From a virus, in the IMG/VR virus record IMGVR_UViG_3300046001_005512, positions 1-20,427 of that record: 20,427 nucleotides of DNA. One strand, written 5' to 3'. Both the position numbers and the translations under genes were made by a program. Each line of letters starts with the position of its first letter. Within the stretch, counting starts at the first letter, position 1. The notes beneath the pieces were generated by a model. It made no database searches, was not told the DNA's origin, and was given only the letters and a program-made list of their open reading frames with translations. This document shows positions 2,259 through 15,114 of this stretch, piece by piece.

Positions 2259-4049
2259 TTATTGAGCAGCTACTGGAGCATTTGAAGTATTAGAAAATTC
2301 ATAATTACTATCTGCATTATTGGGTCCATTGGATAAAGCTATAAATCTTTCAGGTCCATAAGTTTCTGCAAAACCTTCACCATCAGTTCCAAAGGAATTA
2401 CCTTGAAGTCTTGGAATAAAGTTTTGAATTGGTGTAAAATTAAATCCTGTAACTCTAATAATTTGAGTTAATTCTTTTACAGTTCCATCTTCTGACCCTG
2501 GTGTTATTCCAATTCCTATTTCCCATGGACTATCTTCACTCATTTCATATGTTAATCCCGTTATAAAGCCAGGTTGTTCATATAAATAACCACCAATTGT
2601 TAATTGAACTAAATTACCTCTCATATAACCATTTGGACTGTAGTCTGGGGCTAATGTAGATGCAAGATAATTTAATTTTTTATACATTGGAATAAGTTCC
2701 TGTTTTGATTGAGCAGCAACGGTCCATGATAATGAAATTTGTCGAGTAAACCCACCATAAGTGTAGAAATTTTCACCTCTACCAAGATATTGAAAACTAT
2801 TCCATTGAGCATTATATGAATCTGATATAGGTCCTAAAAATGCTCTAAAATGCATAAATGTTTTAAAATTAGGAGCATCATTATCAATAACAGCAATTCT
2901 AAATTTTACAAAATCATTTATTACATCATCTGTAGATACATTTTGACTTCTATATATAGGTAATGAATTTATTTTATCTAAACCAAGAGAATAAGAACCT
3001 ATTTGAGGAATATCTCTATTACCATATGATACACCTTTAGAATAATCAGCATAGCTTTTATTTTGTCTTTGTCCTGGGTCTCCTATATTTACACGTTTTT
3101 CAAAATTTCCTGCATCTTGGTCTGAATAATTTAGTGAATAAGCTGTTGCTCCACTATCAGTAGCATTTTTGCCTTCTGTAGTACTAATACCTAGTTTTTC
3201 TCTTAATATTTTTCTAAAATCTTGAATTTTAGGAGAAGAAATACTACCTTGTGGTCCTGAACTTTGAGCTTCTGGTATTAAAGGAAGTAAGGGTGCTTGA
3301 TAATAAGGTGCAAATAAATCTTTAGAATTAAAAACCCAGTTACCTGTAGATTTACCAACAGTAAAATTATTATTTTTAGTTGGATTTGTTAAAAAAGTTC
3401 GAGATAACTTAGAATATTTTATAGCTGTGTTTCCTACTCCTAATAAAGAACCAGGACCACCTGTATAGGTCATCACATTAGTACCATTATTAAGTATTAC
3501 TCCTGTACCAAAAGGACGAGGAGTGCCTTCTAGGGGTGAAGTTGAAGTTACTTCATATAAATTAAATAATCTATTTTCAGATGGTGGTTTAAATTTATTT
3601 ACTTTAAAATCATATAAAGCATCGTTATTAGCATCTACTCCTGTTTCAGCAAATGGATTAAGACCTTGTTTATTTAAATGATAACCACCAGCTATTACAC
3701 CTGCTTGTGCTAATGTGTTTAATGGAGAATATATACCTTCGTTTAATGTACGACCACTAGTTTGAGTACGAACTGCTGTACGTGATAATAATTGTTGTTT
3801 AGCAATAAAAAGTAATCCGTTTGGAGACTTTGTATCAATAAACATTTTACCTAAACGTTTAATATCTGTGAGAGAATCTCTTACAGCATTTATTCCGCCT
3901 CGTAAAATAAAATCTTCATTAGCTCCTAAATCATTAAAGCTATCAGGTATTGGTGTTTGAATATAGGGTTGGCCACTATACCCTCCACCAAGGGTATCTT
4001 TCCCATATCTTAGGGACTTAAGATCAGTCTTTAAGTCAATTAACCCCAT
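2259..4049 (-). CDS. Tail tube cap / baseplate-like structural protein
   Basis: This is a 596-residue protein starting MGLIDLKTDLKSLRYG. The N-terminal 380 residues are Asn/Ser/Gly-rich, without a recognisable domain. Residues 385-520 look like a tube-fold domain: FRAFLGPISDSYNAQW, then FQYLGRGENFYTYGGFTRQI, ISLSWTVAAQSKQEL, LNYLASTLAPDYS and a GYMRGNLVQLTIGGY strand. This resembles the domain I associate with the T4 gp48/gp54 type, which terminates or starts the tail tube. Its start overlaps the stop of the preceding small gene as TAATG (4051-4047), so translation is probably coupled. Its location just after the tape measure matches the usual place of tube-initiator genes. Structural role is likely; the exact equivalence to gp48 or gp54 is tentative. 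Profile-profile comparison would be decisive. Confidence 0.65.
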   Translation of the reverse strand: MGLIDLKTDLKSLRYGKDTLGGGYSGQPYIQTPIPDSFNDLGANEDFILRGGINAVRDSLTDIKRLGKMFIDTKSPNGLLFIAKQQLLSRTAVRTQTSGRTLNEGIYSPLNTLAQAGVIAGGYHLNKQGLNPFAETGVDANNDALYDFKVNKFKPPSENRLFNLYEVTSTSPLEGTPRPFGTGVILNNGTNVMTYTGGPGSLLGVGNTAIKYSKLSRTFLTNPTKNNNFTVGKSTGNWVFNSKDLFAPYYQAPLLPLIPEAQSSGPQGSISSPKIQDFRKILREKLGISTTEGKNATDSGATAYSLNYSDQDAGNFEKRVNIGDPGQRQNKSYADYSKGVSYGNRDIPQIGSYSLGLDKINSLPIYRSQNVSTDDVINDFVKFRIAVIDNDAPNFKTFMHFRAFLGPISDSYNAQWNSFQYLGRGENFYTYGGFTRQISLSWTVAAQSKQELIPMYKKLNYLASTLAPDYSPNGYMRGNLVQLTIGGYLYEQPGFITGLTYEMSEDSPWEIGIGITPGSEDGTVKELTQIIRVTGFNFTPIQNFIPRLQGNSFGTDGEGFAETYGPERFIALSNGPNNADSNYEFSNTSNAPVAAQ

Positions 4050-4294
4050 TATTTAGGTGGATTATCCAAATATTTACTTGGTGTTTTTCCGTCTAAATCA
4101 AGTTGTGAGGTAGCTAATGATTTTTGATAATTAGAAACACCATCATATTGTAAAGGTGTTTTGCCATCTAAGTCTAATTGTGAGGCAGCTAAATCTTTTT
4201 GATAGTTTGAAGCACCATCATATTTTACTGGTGTTTTACCATCTAAATCAGTTAGTACTGAACCTGCTTTTGTTAATTTATCTAATAGTCCCAT
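4049..4294 (-). CDS. Small protein with 25-residue LDGKTP repeats
   Basis: This is an 81-residue protein made almost entirely of an internal repeat. LDGKTP occurs at residues 17-22, 42-47 and 67-72, exactly 25 residues apart, each followed by a YDG-SNYQK-type stretch (the third copy is truncated and ends in NPPK). The N-terminus MGLLDKLTKA resembles that of the next gene (MGLIDLKTD), which could mean a shared short signal for docking to the same partner. Its stop overlaps the next start by one base (TAATG), so both are probably made in fixed proportion. It begins 31 bases after the tape measure stop, where a candidate promoter motif lies. The function is unknown; its place between tape measure and baseplate genes suggests a small tail or assembly component. 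Confidence 0.7.
   Translation of the reverse strand: MGLLDKLTKAGSVLTDLDGKTPVKYDGASNYQKDLAASQLDLDGKTPLQYDGVSNYQKSLATSQLDLDGKTPSKYLDNPPK
4055..4246 (-). repeat. Three in-frame 75-bp coding repeats
   Basis: Two full copies and one partial copy of a 25-codon unit make up the small protein. Each copy starts with LDGKTP. The DNA copies have drifted at synonymous positions (the Lys-Thr-Pro codons differ between copies), so the repeat is old or held at protein level rather than freshly duplicated. Confidence 0.75.
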
Positions 4295-4325: not shown

Positions 4326-6896
4326 TTATTGAACTCTATATGTTCCTACATTCATTGCTGTACCTACTTTAGTAGCATCTAAATATACATTTCCTCCTGC
4401 TTTTACAGCAGCTACAAGTTCTCTAAGTAATGCTGTTACTTCTTCACTTCCACCACCCAAATTAGTACCACCCATTATAACATCACCTTTATTGGCTTTT
4501 ATAATTTGTTTTGAACCTGGGCGAATAATAAAATCATCGGCTTCTTCAGCATCTGCAAAGAAATTTTTATATGCTCCATATCCTGCTCCTAAAGCACCAC
4601 CAATTGCTGCTCCTGGAACTGCTCCTATTCCTCCAAAAAATGCACCAATTGTACCTCCTATTCCTGCTCCTGTTAAAGCTGAACTTCCTATATCTGTAGC
4701 TTTTCCAACATTTCTTGCTTTTGCTGCTGCTTCAAGTTGACCGGATTGTTCAAGTTCTTGGGCTTTTTCCATTTGGTTTTCAGTAGCATAATCTAATGCT
4801 GCACCACCAAGTAAAGAACCTACTCCACCAGCTAAACCCTTAGCTATTTTTAAACCAGTACCCCCCATTTTTAAAGCTCTCATATAAGCTTTAGGGTTTT
4901 TAAATAATGTTTTTGCTTGTTTAGCTAAAGAAGCTGGTTTTGCTCCTTTTCCTAATGAACCTGATGAACCTGATAAATCTGTATCACCTAAGCCACCTCC
5001 CCCACCGGCTACAATTACATGTAATGGTTTTAAGGCTGAACCATCCGGTTTCATTATGTTTTTTGCAAACATTGCTACTTTAAAAGCAACAAAACCAGCA
5101 AGTATTTTATCTAAATTAGGGATAACATATTTAGCTAATCCATCTGCAAGACCTGTTACAATTTTAGCAAATTTATCCATATTTTCAGGAGAGAAAAGAG
5201 ATTTTGCTAATGGTGCAAAGGCATTTGCTATACTTTCTTTAGCTTGTTCATAAGTTTTATTAAGTTCTTGAGCAGCTTTTTGTTGTTTAAGAGTATCATC
5301 TATACCTTTAGTTTTAAAAGCAGCAATTGCTTCTTCTCTACTAACACCTTTTTCCATTTCATATGCAATTGCTTTTTCAATAGATGCTTGATCTTTTCCT
5401 AATTTGTTTTGCAATTCCATAGATTCTTGCATTTGAAGTAATTCTTCTCTACTAAGACCTAAAGTTTTTGCAAATTGATCTTGTGCAATTACATTACCTT
5501 TGATTTTATCTTTGTTTTCAGTTATTAAACGCTGCATTTCTTTAGTCTGTGTTGTAACATCCCCTGTTAATGCTGCATATCTTAATTGTTCAAGATTTAA
5601 ATCTGTATTTAATAATAATTCTGATTGAATTTCATCAGCTATACTTTCTTCAAAATTTAAAGTATTTTCTGCTGCTTTTTGTATTTGGTCTAAAGAAGCT
5701 CCCATTTTAGCTGCTTCAATAGCTGCTTTTGTTAGTTCAGTAGTTGAACCTTTTAAATTTACTCTTATAGAAGCACTAGATGAGGTAATGTTTTTTAAAA
5801 CTTTATTTTCATTTACTGCGGCTTTATTTCTAACATTATATAAACCTGTTTGAACAGCTACATCTTTTGTTATATTTTCAAATTCAGTCCCATTTAATTG
5901 AGATATTCTATATAATTTAGAAGCTTCTTCACCTGAAAGACCTAAGTATGAAGTTAAATCAACATATGTTTTTAAATTCTTTTCGGATACACTAGCAAAA
6001 GTCCCAGTTTCATTATTTAAATCCGTGAAAGCTTTTTGTATTTCTTTTGAATTATAATACAAACCACCACTACTTGAAGCTATATCTCTAAAACTTTGTA
6101 CTAAATTATTAGCTTGTGAACCTATAGCTATAAAATTTCTTCCAGCATCAGCAACATCGTCTTTAAATGAAAAAGCTATTGTTTTTAAATAAGTAAAAGA
6201 TTTGCTTATTAAATTTACATAAATTAAAGGATCATTAAATGCTTGAAGTAATCCTTTACCTAATGATTTTGTAGCAGCACCTAATACTTTAAATTTACCT
6301 ACAATTCCTAAAGTATTTGTTTCTGATACACCTAATGCTTTTGCTTGTTCTACAGCTGATTGTCTAGCATCTTCAAATACATCATCTAAACCACTTAATC
6401 CTAATTTAGATGCTAATTTAGATGCTGCTGAAAGACCAGCACCTGATAGTCCTATACTTTTATTTATATTTTGAGAATAAGAAAGTTGTTTTTTTAATTC
6501 TTTTTCATATTCTTTATTTTGTTCAATAATTTTATCGTATTCTTTTTTTAATTTACTAGCATTTTTAACGCCATTAACTTCAGCAATTTCAATTGCTGTT
6601 TTTATTGCTGCTAATTTTGAATTTCTTTCTTGAATTTGACGAGTTATATCTCGTTGTTTTAATAATCCATTTGATGCTTTTTCGTTTGATGATGCTAAAT
6701 CTTTACTAATTTTACTTAAATTGTTAAGACCAGATTGAGCATCCTTAACCATATTTTTAGCTACATCTTCTCCTCTACTCAATGCTTCTTCAAAATAATC
6801 ACCTATTTTAGATGATATATTACGAAAAGCATCTTCAACTACTCTTGCAGTATCTTGTGCTTCTTTTTTAATTCTTTTTTCGTTATCTAAAGCCAT
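4326..6896 (-). CDS. Tail tape measure protein
   Basis: This is an 856-residue protein and the longest complete gene here. Residues 1-150 are a highly charged helix with heptad-like spacing. Residues 150-600 are mostly helical, Lys/Glu/Ala-rich and Gly-poor. From about 590 hydrophobic and Gly/Ala-rich segments appear, the clearest at about 735-780 (GAGIGGTIGAFFGGIGAVPG). These are typical of tape measures that end up in the host membrane. The C-terminus contains FIIRPGSKQIIKANKGDVIM and VYLDATKVGTAMN, a tail-tip type ending seen in many tape measures. The tape measure rule (about 0.15 nm per residue) predicts a tail near 130 nm. The gene follows a gp26-like gene with a frameshifted extension, the usual position just after tail assembly chaperones. 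Its start has no Shine-Dalgarno sequence; a hairpin and a promoter-like motif lie upstream. Confidence 0.9.
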   Translation of the reverse strand: MALDNEKRIKKEAQDTARVVEDAFRNISSKIGDYFEEALSRGEDVAKNMVKDAQSGLNNLSKISKDLASSNEKASNGLLKQRDITRQIQERNSKLAAIKTAIEIAEVNGVKNASKLKKEYDKIIEQNKEYEKELKKQLSYSQNINKSIGLSGAGLSAASKLASKLGLSGLDDVFEDARQSAVEQAKALGVSETNTLGIVGKFKVLGAATKSLGKGLLQAFNDPLIYVNLISKSFTYLKTIAFSFKDDVADAGRNFIAIGSQANNLVQSFRDIASSSGGLYYNSKEIQKAFTDLNNETGTFASVSEKNLKTYVDLTSYLGLSGEEASKLYRISQLNGTEFENITKDVAVQTGLYNVRNKAAVNENKVLKNITSSSASIRVNLKGSTTELTKAAIEAAKMGASLDQIQKAAENTLNFEESIADEIQSELLLNTDLNLEQLRYAALTGDVTTQTKEMQRLITENKDKIKGNVIAQDQFAKTLGLSREELLQMQESMELQNKLGKDQASIEKAIAYEMEKGVSREEAIAAFKTKGIDDTLKQQKAAQELNKTYEQAKESIANAFAPLAKSLFSPENMDKFAKIVTGLADGLAKYVIPNLDKILAGFVAFKVAMFAKNIMKPDGSALKPLHVIVAGGGGGLGDTDLSGSSGSLGKGAKPASLAKQAKTLFKNPKAYMRALKMGGTGLKIAKGLAGGVGSLLGGAALDYATENQMEKAQELEQSGQLEAAAKARNVGKATDIGSSALTGAGIGGTIGAFFGGIGAVPGAAIGGALGAGYGAYKNFFADAEEADDFIIRPGSKQIIKANKGDVIMGGTNLGGGSEEVTALLRELVAAVKAGGNVYLDATKVGTAMNVGTYRVQ

Positions 6897-6921: not shown

Positions 6922-6947
6922 AAAGGCATCATTTCTTTGATGCCTTT
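6922..6947 (-). terminator. Perfect 10-bp hairpin, possible weak terminator
   Basis: AAAGGCATCA and TGATGCCTTT pair perfectly around a 6-base loop. The stem includes the stop codon of the frameshift extension (TGA at 6931-6929) and is followed on the coding strand by an AT-rich stretch starting TTTAATATTTAT. It has A-tract/T-tract flanks on both sides, so it could end or slow transcription from either direction. The U tract is short, so partial read-through into the tape measure gene is expected. Confidence 0.55.
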
Positions 6948-7228
6948 GTTTTATAAGAAGGAATTGATGGAGATGGAGCAATTCCCGTATTTTTAGCCAT
7001 TTTAAGATTTCTTATAGAAGTTTGTACTGAATCTTCTTGTGATTTTTGATTCTGAGATTCAAAGTAGTTTCTAATTTTACTAAATGTATATTTTCTTAAC
7101 CATAAAGGCATATCGTATATAGTATTCCAATCATATCCTCCATTACCATGAAATACTATTTCATGGATTTGATTAAAAACTTTTTCTCTATATTCAGATG
7201 CCTCACTAGGCGTCAGGGAAAAAAAAAT
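6929..7228 (-). CDS. Frameshift extension of the gp26-like gene (tail assembly chaperone type)
   Basis: This is an open frame of 99 codons, starting right after a stop at 7231-7229 and ending at the TGA at 6931-6929. It has no ATG until 7111, yet the part before that ATG looks fully coding: SLTPSEASEYREKVFNQIHE, then IVFHGNGGYDWNTIYDMPLW and LRKYTFSKIRNYF. A helix followed by a GGYDW--IYDMPLWLRK segment is a pattern I associate with small T4-like phage proteins encoded after gp26. It overlaps the end of the gp26-like gene in the +1 frame, over a run of nine U. The most economical reading is that ribosomes shift frame and make a fusion of about 339 residues. A separate 60-residue protein from the ATG at 7111 would lose the most conserved part and lacks a ribosome binding site, so I consider it unlikely. 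Confidence 0.65.
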   Translation of the reverse strand: MFFSLTPSEASEYREKVFNQIHEIVFHGNGGYDWNTIYDMPLWLRKYTFSKIRNYFESQNQKSQEDSVQTSIRNLKMAKNTGIAPSPSIPSYKTKASKK

Positions 7229-7949
7229 TTAATCCAATTGGAATGTTTATTTTTTCAGTTTCTTCATTTGATATTTCTATTTCAAATGTTAAATCAACAT
7301 CTGGTTGGATTTTACCAATATATTCTCTTAATGATCTAGAATCTTTAGCTAAAAGATAATTATCTACAAATTCACGAATTGTTTTTTTCTCATAATCACC
7401 ATCAATAGATAAAATAACTTGTTTTAAACGAGTTGTTAATTCAGGAACACTATCTTTGTTAATTTTTTTAAGACCTTTTAATTCATCTTCAATTTTATTT
7501 TCATCACCTTCTGTTAAAAGTTTAAATGTAATAGGTGTATTAGAATGAGGTAAAGTAAATGCAAATTCATTTTTACCTTTAATAAAAATAGAATCATCTA
7601 AAACTTTATTATTTAATTTAGATAAATCAACTACTTTCACTTCGCCTAAGTAATTAAAATCATAATCTTTACCATAACCTAAAATACGAGATGCTACTAA
7701 CAATGCATTTTTATCACCAATTAAAAGTGTATTATAATCAAATTTAGTAACAATTAATGATTGTAGTAATTTATCAATTACTACACCTTTTACGATATAA
7801 TTTTGATTAGTTAAGATATCTTCTTCTCTTGCAGTCATGTATTTCATTTCAACTTGACCAGATGATAAAGGATGTCCTTCGGGATAAACTAAACCTTTTG
7901 AAGGTAAATCTACCATTTCGGTAGGAAATTTAAATTTTTGTTCTTCCAT
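7206..7949 (-). CDS. T4 gp26-like baseplate / tail assembly protein
   Basis: This is a 247-residue protein. Residues 14-50 carry the signature of the T4 baseplate protein family to which gp26 belongs: LPSKGLVYPEGHPLSSGQVE followed by MKYMTAREEDILTNQ. The middle is helical and charged, and the end is a strand-rich part finishing NIPIGLNFFFPDA. From memory, relatives end in a similar NFFWP stretch, so the zero-frame ending looks genuine rather than a broken tail. Such proteins were described as baseplate hub subunits, but their position before the tape measure and the frameshifted extension also fit a tail assembly chaperone, analogous to lambda G and GT. The gene starts about 100 bases after the tail tube gene, behind a terminator and a promoter-like motif, so it is probably made at a different level from the tube. 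Confidence 0.8.
   Translation of the reverse strand: MEEQKFKFPTEMVDLPSKGLVYPEGHPLSSGQVEMKYMTAREEDILTNQNYIVKGVVIDKLLQSLIVTKFDYNTLLIGDKNALLVASRILGYGKDYDFNYLGEVKVVDLSKLNNKVLDDSIFIKGKNEFAFTLPHSNTPITFKLLTEGDENKIEDELKGLKKINKDSVPELTTRLKQVILSIDGDYEKKTIREFVDNYLLAKDSRSLREYIGKIQPDVDLTFEIEISNEETEKINIPIGLNFFFPDA
7209..7228 (-). other. Candidate recoding site: run of nine U
   Basis: The mRNA reads AAU UUU UUU UUC CCU GAC GCC UAG in the gp26-like frame; the nine U are at 7227-7219. The frames overlap only between 7228 and 7206. A +1 slip of UUU to UUU, a tandem -2 slip of UUU-UUC to UUU-UUU, or polymerase slippage on the homopolymer would all give the same downstream frame. A sequencing indel in the homopolymer is the alternative. 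Confidence 0.55.
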
Positions 7950-8048: not shown

Positions 8049-8537
8049 TTAGAAATTCAACACACAATAATCTGGTTGAACTGTCATTGTGATGTTTACA
8101 GCTGTGTTTTCAGTATCCCAGTTGTAATCTCCAAAGTTTGATTCGGTAATTAACGCGCCTTTGATAATCCATTCTGAAACGATATCACCTACTGGTCCTA
8201 ATACGTCAAATGTTAAGTCTTTTTTATAAAAATCACTATAACCATCACGACCTGTTACTGATTCGTGGTGTAAACGTACCCATTCCATTACTGCCTGCGC
8301 ACCTGAAGGTGTGATAGGATCGAATAATGTAAATTGAATAGTACCCCAAGTAGTTTTACCTTTCACAAAACGTTGTACGTTAATATGATTTAAAGGAACT
8401 GTTCCTTGAGTTAACGTCACTGCACCTACACCTTTGATCTCATACGCAGGAATACCATCAATATACATGATAAAGCGGTTCGCCTGTTTTGGTTCAAATG
8501 CTGTGAAAAATATTTCGTTTGGATCTAATACTGCCAT
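8049..8537 (-). CDS. Tail tube protein (T4 gp19-like)
   Basis: This is a 162-residue protein of the T4 gp19 tail tube family. It opens with NRFIMYIDGIPAYEIKGVGA, the first strands of the tube fold. It continues with VQRFVKGKTTWGTIQFTLFD, FYKKDLTFDVLGP, WIIKGALITESNFGDYNW and a final strand ending in TMTVQPDYCVLNF. Length and order of these elements fit gp19. The protein stacks as hexameric rings inside the sheath and forms the channel for DNA. It follows the sheath gene by 46 bases, as in T4, and is followed by a terminator. All four Arg codons are CGN, whereas the glycosyltransferase genes mostly use AGA; this fits high expression. The leader and start (8549-8530) share 20 identical bases with those of the 224-residue gene at 15860-15841. 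Confidence 0.93.
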   Translation of the reverse strand: MAVLDPNEIFFTAFEPKQANRFIMYIDGIPAYEIKGVGAVTLTQGTVPLNHINVQRFVKGKTTWGTIQFTLFDPITPSGAQAVMEWVRLHHESVTGRDGYSDFYKKDLTFDVLGPVGDIVSEWIIKGALITESNFGDYNWDTENTAVNITMTVQPDYCVLNF

Positions 8538-8583: not shown

Positions 8584-10683
8584 TTACGCCGGGAAAACTG
8601 CTCCAGTTGGTAAAATGTTGAAATCCAAGTAAATGAATTCAGCAGTCTTAGTAGGTTGAATATAAATTTGACCTACCATCTGGTTTCTGTCGATTACGTC
8701 AGCGGTGTTGTTTGAGTCATCCATGATTACTTTAAAAGCATACAAACCTTGTCTTTGTTGTACTGATTCTAAGTATGGATTAACTTGACTTAAGAATTGG
8801 TTTCTTGTAGCAATACTGTTTTGTTCAAACACTAAGTTTTGAGCTACTTGAGAAATGTATCCTTTAAGTTGGATTAATAATCTACGAACGTTTACACGAT
8901 CTAAAGCAGATGCTTTAGTTTGTAATGTTTTCTGTCCGTATACTACAACTCCTGTTCCAGGGAATGTTGCAATTGGATTAACTTTGTTTTGATATAAAGT
9001 ATCGCGGTTTGTTTGAGATAATTTTTTCTCAGCTCTAACTACTGTACCTAATCCACCTCTGTTAATACCTGCTGGTGCAAACCAAGGTTCTGATACACTA
9101 TCGTTATAAGCGTAAACACCTGCTACCAATGTAGAAGCCGGTACCCAAATTAATTGAGCAGAATCTGGATCAATTGTTTGAACCCAAGGCCAATATGTTG
9201 CTGCGTATGAAGTATTTTTAGCGTTTGCTTGAGTAACTACATCATTAATGCTTGAACTAAATGGTACTAAATCTACTACATAAATAGCATCTCCTCTATT
9301 CATTGTATTATTAATTGCTGTGGTTACTTGTGATGAACCTAAATTTAAGGTTGGTGCAAATAAACCAGGAGTTAATAATACATTGTATTGATAATCATCA
9401 GCATTAGCCATTAAGTTAAGCATGTTAGTGTAATCACTACCTGTTAAACCTTGTGTATTTGTTGAAGCAACATCAATATTACTATTATAATCAGCAACAA
9501 TTCCAGTATTTAAAGTACCTGTAGCTCCTATAAATGAACCACTTGCGTTTGATGGGATTGATGATGTGTATTGAGATTTTGCTTGTCCATTGTTATCAAA
9601 ATAGAATGGAGTTGGTGTTAAAACACTAGATACATAAACATATCTTGAATTTGTTGGATAATCACCAATTACTTCAATTTGATTATCATCAACATTGTAT
9701 TGTTTATATTGGTTACCAATTAATCTAGCTACATAATTTGGTGCTGTTGGATCCATTGATAAGTTAGTCCAAGATTCTAATACAATAGGATTAGTTGAAT
9801 TATCATCTCCTTGACGGATTAATAAAGTAAATGTACCTGAACTTGTATCACGATTTTGGATTTGCCATCTGATATTATCAGCTGAACCTGAAGCTAATGA
9901 ACCACTTACATCTAATGAACTAGAACTATTCATAATAGCACCTTCCGAAATTGTTTTTAAAATTAAAGCTTCTGTATTTGTAGCTCCACTAAATAAAGTA
10001 GTAGTACTTCCAGATACAAAAGTATAAGCATTTAAAGTATCTGCTGAGAAAGTAGTTCCAATTTGTGAAGATGTTGTATTAAAGAATAAACCAGTAGATC
10101 CAGAAGCACTAGCAACAATGTATTGTAATGAAGAACTATATGGAGCTACAGAAGAACTAGCATTAAATGCTGCTACAATAGCTGTAACTGTATTTGCTGG
10201 TGTTGAACCTGAGGCTACAAATATTATTGTTGCTGTATTAGCAGGTGTTGTACTTCCAGTAACAGCAATTGTGATTCCATTAATTAAAAACGATCCCGTA
10301 GGAGTAATAAAAGGAGCTAAACTAGCACTACTAACAGTAACGGAGGCTGTTGTTGCTAAATTTGCATTAACAATAGGAGTTGAATCTGCAGAATCAAAAG
10401 TTCCACTTACTACTCTTGTTACTAATAATGTTTGACCACCATTGTTAAAATAGTTAAAAGCCGCTACTGAGGTAAAATAAGTATAAACTTGGCTAGCACT
10501 TAAAAAAGTTGTACCAAATTTGTTTTGATAATCGCTATATGAGCGAACAACTGTTGGAACTTCAACAGGACCTTTTACTGTTGGACCAACGATAGCTGCT
10601 CCAACGGTGATTGGTAGCGCGGAAACGAAAGAATTGTCATTTTCTAACGCTAATACACCCGGAGATATTAATGTTTCTGCCAT
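8584..10683 (-). CDS. Contractile tail sheath protein (T4 gp18-like)
   Basis: This is a 699-residue protein. The N-terminus (SPGVLALENDNSF, then VGAAIVGPTVKGPVEVP and a YSDYQNKFGT segment, residues 7-58) and the C-terminal domain (GINRGGLGTVVRAEKK, LNPxxTFPGTGVVVYGQKTL-type region, RVNVRRLLIQLKGYISQVAQ and the ending FIYLDFNILPTGAVFP) are those of phage sheath proteins. Sheath subunits surround the tube and contract to drive it into the host. Residues from about 93 to 240 form an insertion very rich in Ser, Thr, Ala and Gly, with the near-repeat GSTTPANTATIIFVASGS / GSTPANTVTAIVAAFNAS. By analogy with T4 gp18, whose inserted domains face outward, this would be surface exposed. Codon use is biased in the same way as in the tube gene. 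The gene is followed by the tube after 46 bases and preceded by a promoter-like motif. Confidence 0.93.
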   Translation of the reverse strand: MAETLISPGVLALENDNSFVSALPITVGAAIVGPTVKGPVEVPTVVRSYSDYQNKFGTTFLSASQVYTYFTSVAAFNYFNNGGQTLLVTRVVSGTFDSADSTPIVNANLATTASVTVSSASLAPFITPTGSFLINGITIAVTGSTTPANTATIIFVASGSTPANTVTAIVAAFNASSSVAPYSSSLQYIVASASGSTGLFFNTTSSQIGTTFSADTLNAYTFVSGSTTTLFSGATNTEALILKTISEGAIMNSSSSLDVSGSLASGSADNIRWQIQNRDTSSGTFTLLIRQGDDNSTNPIVLESWTNLSMDPTAPNYVARLIGNQYKQYNVDDNQIEVIGDYPTNSRYVYVSSVLTPTPFYFDNNGQAKSQYTSSIPSNASGSFIGATGTLNTGIVADYNSNIDVASTNTQGLTGSDYTNMLNLMANADDYQYNVLLTPGLFAPTLNLGSSQVTTAINNTMNRGDAIYVVDLVPFSSSINDVVTQANAKNTSYAATYWPWVQTIDPDSAQLIWVPASTLVAGVYAYNDSVSEPWFAPAGINRGGLGTVVRAEKKLSQTNRDTLYQNKVNPIATFPGTGVVVYGQKTLQTKASALDRVNVRRLLIQLKGYISQVAQNLVFEQNSIATRNQFLSQVNPYLESVQQRQGLYAFKVIMDDSNNTADVIDRNQMVGQIYIQPTKTAEFIYLDFNILPTGAVFPA

Positions 10684-10985: not shown

Positions 10986-12188
10986 TTAATAAATATATAG
11001 AAGTTTATTAATAGATTCAATCACTTGAGAAGGCTCAATAACTTTTGTGCACTCAAATTGACGTGGTGTATCTTTATGGTCAGGACACCATTCCCAATCA
11101 CCGGGATTTAACCATTGGCGATTAAAGCATCCTCTACATGTTTTAGGATCTTTAGGAAATAAACGTTCACAATCTTGAAATTCAGTATATGGATAACTAA
11201 ATCCTGAAATTAATATTGTAGGTGTATTTAATCCCCAACTTAACCAACTTAATCCACTGCCTAATCCAATAAATAAATCAGCATCTCTAATATCAACCAT
11301 TCTATCTTCTAAGGAAATATTAAATCCTGTTTTATCAATAACACCTGTTAATGTACCTCCTAATTTTGAATCATGCCACTCATCATTTAATGGTTCTGCT
11401 GTTAACATAACAACTTTATAACCTTTTTCATTTAAATAATCAATAATGGTTTGCCATCCACCTGGATGATTCCAATACTTAGCATGTGCTGAAGCATGAG
11501 GGGCTATAACAACGTATTTACCTTCAATATCAGTTTTATGTTCAGGGGTAATTAATTTTGGTTTTACCTCTCTATATTTCATTCCTAATATTTCAGTAGC
11601 GGTTTGTTGTAATGGATATTTTTTAAAGTCAATCGGTGTTCTATCATAAACAACCTTTTTATTATCATAAAACCATCCAATAGTAAACATACCATATAAA
11701 CCATGTACTTCTTCTCCAGGTTTAACAAATTTTAATTCAGGATAATTTCCTTCAAACCATTCATTATGGAACGTAGAACATACTACTTCACATTTATTTT
11801 CTTTCCTAAATTCATCAATTATAGGAAACCAAGCTAATGTATCTCCTAATGCTCCTGAATCTAAATGGATGTAAATTCTTTTACCTTCAGGTTCAAAATT
11901 ATGTTCTAAAATTTTAAATCCACTTTCTTTATCATATATCTCAATACGCCATTTAACTAAATACTTAATATTAGTACGAGTCCACATATTATTACTAATA
12001 GTGTTTTCAAATAAAACTCGGTTAGTTTTAGTGTTAATAAATTTTACTTGGTATGTTTTTTGTAGTGGTCCTAAAACTTCTACAAAAGCACCATCCATAA
12101 AATTTATGTTAAAAATATTTTCGGGTTTTTTGTGAGGTAATCCTAATATTTTAGTGTTACCATACTCGTTAATTAAAACTTCTTTCAT
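10986..12188 (-). CDS. TibC/Aah-like protein O-heptosyltransferase
   Basis: This is a 400-residue enzyme that resembles the autotransporter heptosyltransferase family (TibC, Aah). These are GT-B enzymes that move heptose from ADP-heptose to Ser/Thr residues of repetitive surface proteins. Residues 28-95 are a beta-rich N-terminal domain. The family's loop appears as HLDSGALGDTLAW (108-120), with Asp110 where I recall the catalytic Asp of TibC. The nucleotide-sugar half has APHASAHAKYWNHPGGWQ (229-246) and GLGSGLSWLSWGLNTPTILI (308-327). Four cysteines (C351, C354, C368, C380) in the context CRGC, EWCPDH, FEC match the iron finger of TibC. The start overlaps the stop of the GT4 gene as ATGA. 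No autotransporter is in the window; the nearest repetitive Ser/Thr-rich proteins are the fibre and the sheath insertion. Family membership is well supported; the sugar and acceptor are unknown. Confidence 0.85.
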   Translation of the reverse strand: MKEVLINEYGNTKILGLPHKKPENIFNINFMDGAFVEVLGPLQKTYQVKFINTKTNRVLFENTISNNMWTRTNIKYLVKWRIEIYDKESGFKILEHNFEPEGKRIYIHLDSGALGDTLAWFPIIDEFRKENKCEVVCSTFHNEWFEGNYPELKFVKPGEEVHGLYGMFTIGWFYDNKKVVYDRTPIDFKKYPLQQTATEILGMKYREVKPKLITPEHKTDIEGKYVVIAPHASAHAKYWNHPGGWQTIIDYLNEKGYKVVMLTAEPLNDEWHDSKLGGTLTGVIDKTGFNISLEDRMVDIRDADLFIGLGSGLSWLSWGLNTPTILISGFSYPYTEFQDCERLFPKDPKTCRGCFNRQWLNPGDWEWCPDHKDTPRQFECTKVIEPSQVIESINKLLYIY

Positions 12189-13126
12189 ATATTATTGTAT
12201 AATTCTATTAATTCTTTTGAGCGATTTAACCATGATAATTCTTGAGCAGTATTTAATGAACGTTGTCTATATTCATCATACTCATTTATAATAGTGTCTA
12301 AACCGCGTAACATTTCATTTAAATTTCTTGGTGCTCTCCATAACCCATGAAATGTTGTTTCCATTTCTATCCATCCTAAAATAGGTAAACCACAAGCTGC
12401 TGCCTCCAGTAATGTAAGATTAGGATGTCCAGCTTCCAAGTCTGATGGGTGAAGAAATATAGTGTGTGATGTGTAAAGTTGTCTTAATTGTTCGTTTGAA
12501 GGTTCCCAAATAATAGTTAATTTAGGATATCCTTTAACCCATGGATTATCATTAAGCCAATTTTCATTATTTTTAGGACCTGCAAGTGTGATTGGTAAAT
12601 TACGAGACATTGCTACTTGTACACCTAATCCAAATCCTTTTCTATCATATGAACCATAACCTCCTAATCCATTATTTGCTAACATTAACAAACTATGGTT
12701 TATAGGATATGTTTCGTTTGGATAAAATTTAGTTATGTCGGCTCCATGTGAAAAATAACATACTTTATCTGTATCAAAATAATCAACTAAATAACGAGCA
12801 GGTACTAATGAAAAAATAGATTTTTCCATTGCCTCTAAATTTTCCTTATACACAGATGAATCTTTACCATAATGAAAGGCGTGGTGGTCGTGATGTTGGA
12901 AGATATAAGGTACATCTCTATCAGCAAGAAATAAAGCTAAATTAGCTACATGAACCATTACTATATCATATTCACCTGGATAGATCTCAGCAGCATATTT
13001 AATATCTACTTCATGTCCTAATTCTCTAAGATTACAAGTAAGTTCCCATACGATTTTTTCTACAGCACCCCATGCTACTGGTGGTACTGGTATTCCGCAA
13101 CCTGGATGTACTTGACAAATTTTCAT
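12185..13126 (-). CDS. GT4-type glycosyltransferase
   Basis: This is a 313-residue GT-B fold enzyme. The N-terminus MKICQVHPGCGIPVPPVAWG shows the strand and Gly-rich loop of the acceptor half. VCYFSHGADITKFYPN (122-137) is the linker to the donor half. The donor half has YDRKGFGLGV (160-169), LAGPK (181-185) and the GT4 signature with two glutamates, EAGHPNLTLLEAAACGLPI (231-249). It is slightly short for the family but all main elements are present. It has no membrane segment, so it acts in the cytoplasm on a soluble donor. It overlaps both neighbours (TAATG before it, ATGA after it), so three glycosyltransferases are translated as a coupled unit and probably act in one pathway. Donor and acceptor cannot be read from the sequence. 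Confidence 0.85.
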   Translation of the reverse strand: MKICQVHPGCGIPVPPVAWGAVEKIVWELTCNLRELGHEVDIKYAAEIYPGEYDIVMVHVANLALFLADRDVPYIFQHHDHHAFHYGKDSSVYKENLEAMEKSIFSLVPARYLVDYFDTDKVCYFSHGADITKFYPNETYPINHSLLMLANNGLGGYGSYDRKGFGLGVQVAMSRNLPITLAGPKNNENWLNDNPWVKGYPKLTIIWEPSNEQLRQLYTSHTIFLHPSDLEAGHPNLTLLEAAACGLPILGWIEMETTFHGLWRAPRNLNEMLRGLDTIINEYDEYRQRSLNTAQELSWLNRSKELIELYNNI

Positions 13127-15114
13127 TATTTTGTTTCTAAATTTCCGTTTAATTGGATTTTATTATCTAAATAATCTTGATTAACTACAATAACTTTTTC
13201 ATTAAGAAATTTGTTATCAAAGGCATCATAAAATTTAAATCTAAATGTAACTTCTTTTCCCATAAATTGATATAATCTATACCAAGCAAATTTATGAGTA
13301 ATATCTATTTTTTCACTAAATGTTTCTATTCCTTCTTCTTCACCACTTACAATTAAAGTTCTATTATCTGATTCGTTTGAATTTTGATAATAAACAGCAA
13401 AGTGATTTTCTACATTAGAGGGTAAAACAGTTGTATATTCTACTCGAGAAAAATTATTATGTTTAAAATTTTCAGCAATTAACCAATCCCAATCTTCACT
13501 AGTTTCTATATGAATTTGGTTTCTAAATGGTTTTAAAGCAAAATGAAAAATATTTTCATATCCATTAGAAAAACTACCAACTTTGTTTTTTAAATTATCA
13601 TATTCGGTAGCAGTAGATACAAATTCGTGTGTTTTAAAGAAAAAATTAGTTTGTATACCAAAGAAAAATGTTGCACTTACCATTCCTTCAGGATATTCAC
13701 GTTCATCTACGTATGCTTTTTTCTTATTTAATATAGATGATATATCATTAATAAATTCGGGGTTAGTTAAAATGTAATCATAATTAGTAAAATATAATTT
13801 TTTAAATCCTATATTTTTTGCTAATGAAGCTGCATTATAATAATTTGTATAAACAGCAGGACCATGATATACATCATTATCTTCTCCTTGTAATAAAGTA
13901 TTTACTAAAAAATGTCCATAATCAACCCAACAATAATAATAAAAATCATGTTTAGTTAATAGGTTATTTTTATCATAAACACAGTAATCTACTAATTCTT
14001 GTAATTCTTGAGGAATGGGAACGTGTGAGGTTAATATAATTTTTCTACCTGTTTGTTTAAATGATTCAATACATTCTTTAGTTGAATCTATAATACTTTG
14101 TTGAACAGGGTATGTTGAAATAATTATTGCTTCTTGTTCCGGATAAATTTCTTCTTCTGTTTCTAAAATTTCTTTAATTAATTCACAATTATTTTCAAAA
14201 CTACTAAAATCAAGATAATCAACTGTATCAAATCTATCAAAATAGTTTTGGTATACTTCTAAATTATAAATTAATGTTGGGATTTGATGGGAAATTGCTT
14301 CACGAATAACTAAAGGCATTGTTTCTTTATCATTAGCTGAACCTCGTGATGTAAATAAAAATAAATCCATTGCCTGATAGAATTTATCTACATCTGTTCT
14401 TTCATCCCACCATGTTAAATTTGGGGGAGTATTTTGAGCTAATGGTTCCCAATACCATTTAAAATTATCTGCTCTATTACCTAAACTATGAAATTCATAT
14501 TCAGGAAACTGTCTAGCATAATCAAAAAATTCAGCTTGATTTTTACGAGAGGTGTATAACCCTACGTGTAAAATGTGTTTTTTAGTTGTATCTAGTTGTA
14601 ATTTACGCAATGCCTCTTCACGGTCGGGGCGTTTTATATATTCAATAGGATATTCAACTAATACGCGTGGAATGTCAATATCTTTATATTGGTCTATTTG
14701 CCAATTAGATACAAACATAAACTTATCTGGGAAGAATTTTTTCTGAGTAGTATCAAAGGATGAATCATGTGATGTTTCTACTATAATATATTTTCTTTTA
14801 GGATTATATAAAGCAGAAGCAACCTCAAAATCCATATAAAACTCAGGAATTTCCTCACTATGAACAATATCAGGTTGGATACGATTAACGATATCCATTA
14901 ATTCCATTTTGTTTTTACCTAATGTAAAAAAATTATTAGGTTTAACTAATTTTAAGATTTTGTTTTTTGTTACAACTAATCTACCACCAGTAACATCTGA
15001 CCATTCTATAAGATAAATTTCAAATTCATCTTTTAGTAGTTCTATTTTTTTAGTTAAATATTGGGGAAGACCACCTGTTGATAGATGGGGAGCAATATAC
15101 AACAATTTTTTCAT
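13126..15114 (-). CDS. Two-domain glycosyltransferase (GT4-like plus second domain)
   Basis: This is a 662-residue protein. Residues 1-320 form a GT-B glycosyltransferase: YIAPHLSTGGLPQYL at the N-terminus, HILHVGLYTSRKNQ near 180 and KETMPLVIREAISHQIPTL near 265, the GT4 donor-site region (one Glu is kept, the first is less clear). From about 330 a second domain begins with EAIIISTYPVQQSIIDSTKE and GRKIILTSHVPIP, the opening of a GT-A-like alpha/beta fold, as seen in other marine phage glycosyltransferases I recall. The last 100 residues are beta-rich (AWYRLYQFMGKEVTFRFKFY). The first gene of the glycosyltransferase cluster, it begins after a 59-base gap with a variant of the promoter-like motif, and its stop overlaps the next start (TAATG). 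Two catalytic domains in one chain would allow two successive sugar additions. The GT4 assignment is good; the second domain's activity is inferred. Confidence 0.75.
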   Translation of the reverse strand: MKKLLYIAPHLSTGGLPQYLTKKIELLKDEFEIYLIEWSDVTGGRLVVTKNKILKLVKPNNFFTLGKNKMELMDIVNRIQPDIVHSEEIPEFYMDFEVASALYNPKRKYIIVETSHDSSFDTTQKKFFPDKFMFVSNWQIDQYKDIDIPRVLVEYPIEYIKRPDREEALRKLQLDTTKKHILHVGLYTSRKNQAEFFDYARQFPEYEFHSLGNRADNFKWYWEPLAQNTPPNLTWWDERTDVDKFYQAMDLFLFTSRGSANDKETMPLVIREAISHQIPTLIYNLEVYQNYFDRFDTVDYLDFSSFENNCELIKEILETEEEIYPEQEAIIISTYPVQQSIIDSTKECIESFKQTGRKIILTSHVPIPQELQELVDYCVYDKNNLLTKHDFYYYCWVDYGHFLVNTLLQGEDNDVYHGPAVYTNYYNAASLAKNIGFKKLYFTNYDYILTNPEFINDISSILNKKKAYVDEREYPEGMVSATFFFGIQTNFFFKTHEFVSTATEYDNLKNKVGSFSNGYENIFHFALKPFRNQIHIETSEDWDWLIAENFKHNNFSRVEYTTVLPSNVENHFAVYYQNSNESDNRTLIVSGEEEGIETFSEKIDITHKFAWYRLYQFMGKEVTFRFKFYDAFDNKFLNEKVIVVNQDYLDNKIQLNGNLETK

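Follow-up and report, generated by a model that had tools for sequence, protein, structure and literature searches.

A putative +1 frameshift at a UUU-pyrimidine site in a gp26-like phage tail gene, and its proposed relation to T4 gp26 and gp51

Results

Two overlapping frames between the tail tube gene and the probable tape measure gene

The window (the whole stretch of DNA that was analysed) is an uncultured virus record of 20,427 bases that carries a contractile-tail module, including baseplate genes, on the minus strand. In this module a gene pair, here called frame A and frame B, is situated between the tail tube gene and a probable tape measure gene (Table 1). A PHROG profile search with the latter, the 856-aa ORF, gave no match, and its identification rests on the annotated gene order in Flavobacterium phage immuto.

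Frame A is gp26-like and its product ends in ...GLNFFFPDA, followed by a TAG stop codon. Frame B, which is +1 (equivalently -2) relative to frame A, opens at 7228 after a TAA at 7231-7229, remains open to 6932 and has its stop at 6931-6929. The first ATG, GTG or TTG of frame B in the window is found at 7111. The stretch in which a shift would have to occur reads ATTTTTTTTTCCCTGACGCC and contains a run of nine U, the sole A or T homopolymer of at least eight bases in the 20,427-base window. The original prediction of a gp26-like frame that overlaps a second frame with its first start at 7111, and with U9 in the overlap, held with respect to this ORF geometry. Within U9 the P-site UUU codons lie at 7226-7224 and 7223-7221 and each is followed by a U, so that +1 re-pairing of tRNA-Phe is possible at both. 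U9 was present in each of four near-identical contigs from separate metagenomes. The inferred fusion has 339 residues (computed on row L002, which is identical to the window here) and reads ...IPIGLNFF-SLTPSEASEYR... at the junction. The predicted junction peptide in the window is INIPIGLNFFSLTPSEASEYR for a +1 shift and INIPIGLNFFFSLTPSEASEYR, with an extra Phe, for a -2 shift.

Table 1. Features of the tail module around the two overlapping frames (positions in the window).
Feature	Position	Strand	Basis
Frame A, gp26-like, 247 aa, putative unshifted short product (lambda gpG-like)	7206..7949	minus	ORF; phrog_150 match; AlphaFold model
Frame B, putative C-terminal domain of the long product, 99 open codons and stop	6929..7228	minus	ORF; conserved motif; predicted helical
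20-nt overlap confining the shift (past the frame B stop, ahead of the frame A stop)	7209..7228	minus	frame geometry
U9 run	7219..7227	minus	sequence; UUU-Y in 43/43 relatives
Tail tube protein, directly upstream of frame A	8049..8537	minus	phrog_4542, E 2e-23
Tail sheath protein (contractile tail)	8584..10683	minus	phrog_23, E 4e-70
856-aa ORF directly downstream, probable tape measure protein (putative client of the chaperone)	4326..6896	minus	position compared with immuto

Three further regions of the window were recorded. Between the tail sheath gene and a fibre-like protein, at 10986-15114, lie three glycosyltransferase-like ORFs with GT9-like and GT1-like Pfam matches. The segment 15854-20425 encodes a collagen-like GTSGTSG repeat protein of at least 1523 aa, which is open at the window end, has a Peptidase_S74 chaperone domain at its C-terminus and contains repeats of 9, 18, 27, 45 and 72 bases. 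An 81-aa ORF at 4049-4294 consists mostly of 2.3 copies of a 75-base repeat (DLDGKTPxKYDGxSNYQKxLAxSQ).

Conservation of the +1 arrangement among relatives

With protein A alone as query 21 loci were gathered and with frame B as query 80. The row set consisted of 100 fetched loci and the window; two were cut short and some contigs had been fetched twice, leaving 99 readable rows that reduce to 43 non-redundant lineages. Frame B was in the +1 relation in all 99 readable rows. The query with protein A only gave the same +1 outcome, which is therefore not a bias of searching with B.

The junction was kept almost base for base across the 43 lineages. In every one of them the first junction Phe codon is TTT followed by T or C, whereas only 57 of the 321 other TTT codons in these genes have a pyrimidine next (binomial p 5e-33, uncorrected for relatedness), and CCT follows the junction site in 43/43. 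The run itself varied: U7 was found in 33 lineages, U8 in four, U9 in four and the broken form UUUCUUU in two. What is conserved is thus not U9 as such: the site usually reads U7-GG, and UUUCUUU-GG is also found. The original prediction had designated U9 as the slip site, for which UUU-pyrimidine (UUU-Y) is the better description. The homologue alignment that it proposed as a check confirmed the two-frame arrangement and not the U run, and neither of the observations that would have refuted it (other run lengths restoring a single frame, or homologues with a separate start for B and no overlap) was made.

The bases after the slip are constrained in both frames. Over the 43 lineages frame A reads F[FL][FWY]P[DK], mostly FFWPD, where frame B reads [GST]L[TS], mostly GLT. 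Such dual-frame conservation is what would be expected if the ended and the shifted product both matter, as far as can be inferred from sequence alone. Further downstream in B the motif GNGGYDWxTVYNMPxWLR is strongly conserved, and 15 of the 43 lineages have no ATG, GTG or TTG in frame B ahead of the MP in it.

The +1 arrangement was also observed in six distant phages, namely those of Flavobacterium, Microcystis, Streptococcus, Listeria and Rhodothermus and a huge uncultured phage, each of which has UUU-Y inside the overlap. Their sites include TTT CTT TGG (immuto), TTT CTA TTC (the huge phage, LR756508), TTT CGT (Streptococcus phage GXN1), TTT TTT AGT (Listeria phage LIS04) and TTT TTT TGG (Rhodothermus phage RM378). 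In Microcystis phage Mel-JY01 the annotated start of B lies within the overlap.

Two rows deserve separate mention. In the public record, frame B of immuto (Immutovirus; L102:4851-4961, NC_055915.1) is given as a hypothetical protein of 36 aa that starts at an inner ATG, an annotation that misses the conserved first part of B and the fusion. At L068:740-3434 frame B continues in frame into the large downstream ORF (897 codons), which is not so in the near-identical L054 and L055; this joining of B to the tape measure gene could reflect a deletion or an assembly chimera.

The proposed slip site and its surroundings

UUU-Y is a known site prone to +1 slippage (reviewed in Atkins et al., 2016; PMC5009743), and Schwartz and Curran (1997) reportedly dealt with UUU-pyrimidine sites. 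The anticodon of tRNA-Phe is GAA. In the proposed mechanism the ribosome would mostly end at the frame A stop, which would yield the short protein of 247 aa. In a minority of ribosomes the tRNA-Phe on UUU, with a pyrimidine next at the junction, would slip forward by one base, re-pair with UUU or UUC and remain cognate; translation would then go on in frame B and give the 339-aa fusion. Because tRNA-Phe is cognate to both UUU and UUC, each of the sites permits a +1 shift.

A conserved RNA structure downstream of the site was not found (the mean z was -0.46 and that of a control stretch -0.24, and a consensus fold was absent). Upstream, AGGAG or GGAGG was present about 26-33 nt before the first TTT in 31 of the 43 +1 lineages (in L041, L007 and L104, for instance, as GAGGAGG). 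For the Glu at -30, GAG is strongly preferred to GAA: it is used in 27/34, as compared with 117/828 at other positions of these genes (binomial p 2e-17, again uncorrected for relatedness). This Shine-Dalgarno-like element accompanies 30 of the 34 -GG sites and the one UAC site, and none of the eight U8/U9-CCC sites, among them that of the window; these eight are distributed over two or more parts of the tree. Its distance from the slip site fits neither the 3-nt spacing of prfB nor the spacing of about 10 nt of dnaX. The element may represent a new kind of stimulator, a role that has been inferred from sequence alone.

Alternative explanations for the second frame

A -2 shift of the kind known from phage Mu could also join the two frames. 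It leads to the same frame, and in runs of U7 to U9 tRNA-Phe could re-pair two bases back; the original prediction had left the choice between +1 and -2 undecided. No good P-site re-pairing two bases back exists, however, in UUUCUUU (L007, L018 and immuto) or in UUUCUA (LR756508), whereas a move from UUU to UUC at +1 is always possible. The +1 shift is therefore favoured and the -2 shift appears highly improbable. Slippage of RNA polymerase on U9 would give some transcripts with 8 or 11 U, in which A and B form one frame. A run of nine U is in principle long enough for this, and the subgroup to which the window belongs carries U8 or U9. Yet a run of no more than U7 is found in 33 of the 43 lineages, and in two the run is interrupted by C, so that transcriptional slippage cannot be the shared mechanism. 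As a general explanation there is very little in its favour, but it might contribute some of the fusion in the lineage to which the window itself belongs.

Homopolymers are error-prone and the data are metagenomic, so that a sequencing or assembly error might have split one continuous gene. This can be practically ruled out: the four near-identical contigs agree on U9, the +1 relation is kept in all relatives despite mostly different site sequences, both frames are conserved after the slip and complete genomes of phage isolates show the same arrangement. It might further be argued that B is a separate protein, started in the overlap or by coupled reinitiation. A potential start codon (ATG, GTG or TTG) does occur upstream in frame B in some relatives, and in public records B begins at an inner ATG (immuto) or within the overlap (Mel-JY01). 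The possible starts, however, are at scattered places and absent from the 15 lineages mentioned above, strongly conserved residues precede the inner ATG, and T4 gp51 holds both parts in one protein that is colinear with the fusion of the -1 relatives described below. An independent B is consequently hard to sustain. A CUG start for B at a conserved CTG was disfavoured as well, as L072 has CTA at that position.

The reading preferred by us is that of +1 slippage at UUU-Y, giving a fusion and with it a two-product tail assembly chaperone of the G/GT kind. We consider this to be strongly supported, albeit by inference from comparative sequence evidence. What the comparisons show is the frame geometry, the conservation of the site and of both frames, and how the -1 relatives described below relate to T4 gp26/gp51; that the fusion is produced, how often, at exactly which slip codon, and what each product binds are inferred, without protein or reporter data.

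A probable tail assembly chaperone role

Frame A matched phrog_150 ('baseplate hub') with an E-value of 7.9e-8 over residues 4-244. The Pfam family PF12322 (T4_baseplate) gave no match above its curated cut-off for the window protein A or the immuto protein, so the former is not filed under that family; the related proteins of GXN1, LIS04 and RM378 do match it. A sub-threshold Pfam match of the window's A to WD40_alt was rejected as implausible.

An AlphaFold model of A was obtained with a pLDDT of 90. Of 685 solved chains compared with it, YqbN (3klu) scored highest with Z 5.8, followed by the HK97 tail assembly chaperone (2ob9) with Z 4.8; in each case the match covers the N-terminal approximately 95 residues of A. 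These scores are below the safe level of the tool, which warns that a Z below 8 may reflect a common arrangement, and a Foldseek search with the model gave 2ob9 only at E 1.2. The predicted likeness in fold is thus weak and no more than suggestive. The model of frame B is helical and of moderate confidence (pLDDT 75); a fold search with it returned nothing useful. A place after the tail tube gene and ahead of the tape measure gene, combined with an overlap that gives two products, is characteristic of lambda G/GT-type tail assembly chaperones. Together, the genomic position and the weak resemblance in fold to YqbN and the HK97 chaperone indicate a tail assembly chaperone resembling lambda G/GT, with binding and product ratio being inferred. 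By analogy with lambda, and without binding data, the short product would be the abundant one and coat the tape measure protein, and the long product, present in few copies, would bring in tail tube subunits. The original prediction, in which the gp26 family acts as a tail assembly chaperone with frameshifting and the fusion, of about 339 residues, is encoded just before the tape measure gene, is in this way supported by comparative evidence.

Relatives with a -1 arrangement and the T4 proteins gp26 and gp51

Both T4 gp26 (208 aa) and T4 gp51 (249 aa) belong to phrog_150, and the extra C-terminal part of gp51 matches phrog_634, 'baseplate hub assembly catalyst'. A gp26-family gene with a small overlapping ORF in -1 was found in cyanophage S-RIM8, Methylophilales phage Melnitz-1 and Aeromonas ZPAH1, and likewise in Serratia 3M, Delftia PhiW-14 and Vibrio phi-ST2. 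Among the relatives retrieved with S-RIM8 gp26 alone the second ORF was in -1 in 84/84 rows. In the reduced set of 65 lineages the Phe pair at the site was TTT TTC in 64, the remaining one having TTT TTT. Upstream of the site, at 11-15 nt, there is an enrichment of GAG and GGG codons, and this distance is close to that of the stimulators known for -1 shifts. The cyanophage-type relatives are thus inferred to shift by -1 at U_UUU_UUC, on the strength of their sequences.

Profile comparisons, the E-values of which are for single pairwise comparisons, related the -1 fusion to both T4 proteins. The alignment with T4-type gp51 (E 1.5e-21, 236 columns) runs through the shift site; that with T4 gp26 (E 2.4e-21) stops one or two residues beyond the Phe pair. 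The -1 B domain alone matched gp51 (E 3e-9) and gave no match to gp26 in the profile comparison. The +1 fusion matched the -1 fusion with E 4e-7 over 273 columns and +1 B matched -1 B with E 3.6e-5. Directly compared with T4 gp51, +1 B gave a weak match (E 0.015), and the link runs via the -1 group. A midpoint-rooted tree of the A domain, which has some long branches, contains a 100/100 branch that has every +1 member on the same side. Likewise, a 99/95 branch holds together the whole of the T4-type gp26 and gp51, and the -1 members lie outside it.

Since the -1 fusion is colinear with gp51, and gp26 ends at the shift site, T4 gp26 and gp51 look like duplicated short and long products. As inferred from the sequence comparisons and the tree, the simplest reading is that the T4 lineage swapped the frameshift for a duplication. 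The comparison with T4 gp26 and gp51, suggested in the original prediction as a check, hence led to a link that goes further than was proposed there.

Discussion

In the window phage and in hundreds of relatives one gene appears to yield a short and a long tail-assembly protein; all the evidence is comparative, and on it we hold this view with considerable confidence. A bolder reading, which we think probable, is that gp26/gp51 of the T4 superfamily is its G/GT chaperone. The ancestor would have been one gene with two frames, from which a +1 branch at UUU-Y and a -1 branch at U_UUU_UUC would have descended, with duplication in T4 and with the upstream Shine-Dalgarno-like element perhaps acting as a stimulator.

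Frameshifting in tail chaperone genes is described as nearly universal in long-tailed phages and T4 is listed as an exception (Atkins et al., 2016). In cyanophages and marine vibriophages gp51 was described as lacking the first approximately 200 residues and sharing the C-terminus, and no frameshift was mentioned (Sullivan et al., 2010; PMC3037559). The resemblance of gp26 and gp51 has already been noticed by annotators (Klebsiella phage Miro). No proposal of a gp26/gp51 frameshift was found in the open-access literature searched; novelty is provisional, as subscription papers and preprints were outside the search.

If the bolder reading is true, the T4 superfamily falls inside the tail chaperone frameshift rule, and gp51 of T4, which is essential and functionally unexplained, gains a testable role. 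The exception of T4, the role of gp51 and the truncated gp51 of cyanophages would then have one explanation, and the annotation of two neighbouring genes would be corrected in very many environmental phages. The family would also provide a naturally occurring pair of shift sites, one +1 and one -1, built on the same Phe-Phe codons in homologous genes, together with a case in which a recoding event has apparently been exchanged for gene duplication. The main value is that the question of T4 gp26 and gp51 is made directly testable.

Among known systems, lambda gpG/gpGT shares with the window the overlapping frames between the tail tube and tape measure genes, and a short product next to a longer frameshift fusion. 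It differs in that the window shift would be +1 at UUU-Y instead of -1, in a protein of gp26-family sequence, and in that the product ratio and binding are here inferred. A +1 shift in the tail chaperone of a contractile-tailed virus has been cited as very likely for the archaeal myovirus HSTV-2 (PMC5009743), which belongs to another family and infects a host of another domain. The bacterial release factor 2 gene prfB, with its +1 shift at CUU_U, has P-site slippage in common with the present sites, and some relatives have CUU U as the second codon; the +1 sites described here, however, have no A-site stop codon and no Shine-Dalgarno element 3 nt upstream. The T4 hub assembly chaperones gp26 and gp51 share phrog_150 membership with the window's A (E 8e-8), but they are two separate genes without a frameshift where the window has one gene with two frames, and the similarity of B to gp51 is weak. 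In gp26 and the short gp51 of the cyanophages and vibriophages the same gene pair, the overlap and the invariant Phe-Phe at the shift site return, whereas the putative shift is -1 at U_UUU_UUC and the pair is annotated as two genes.
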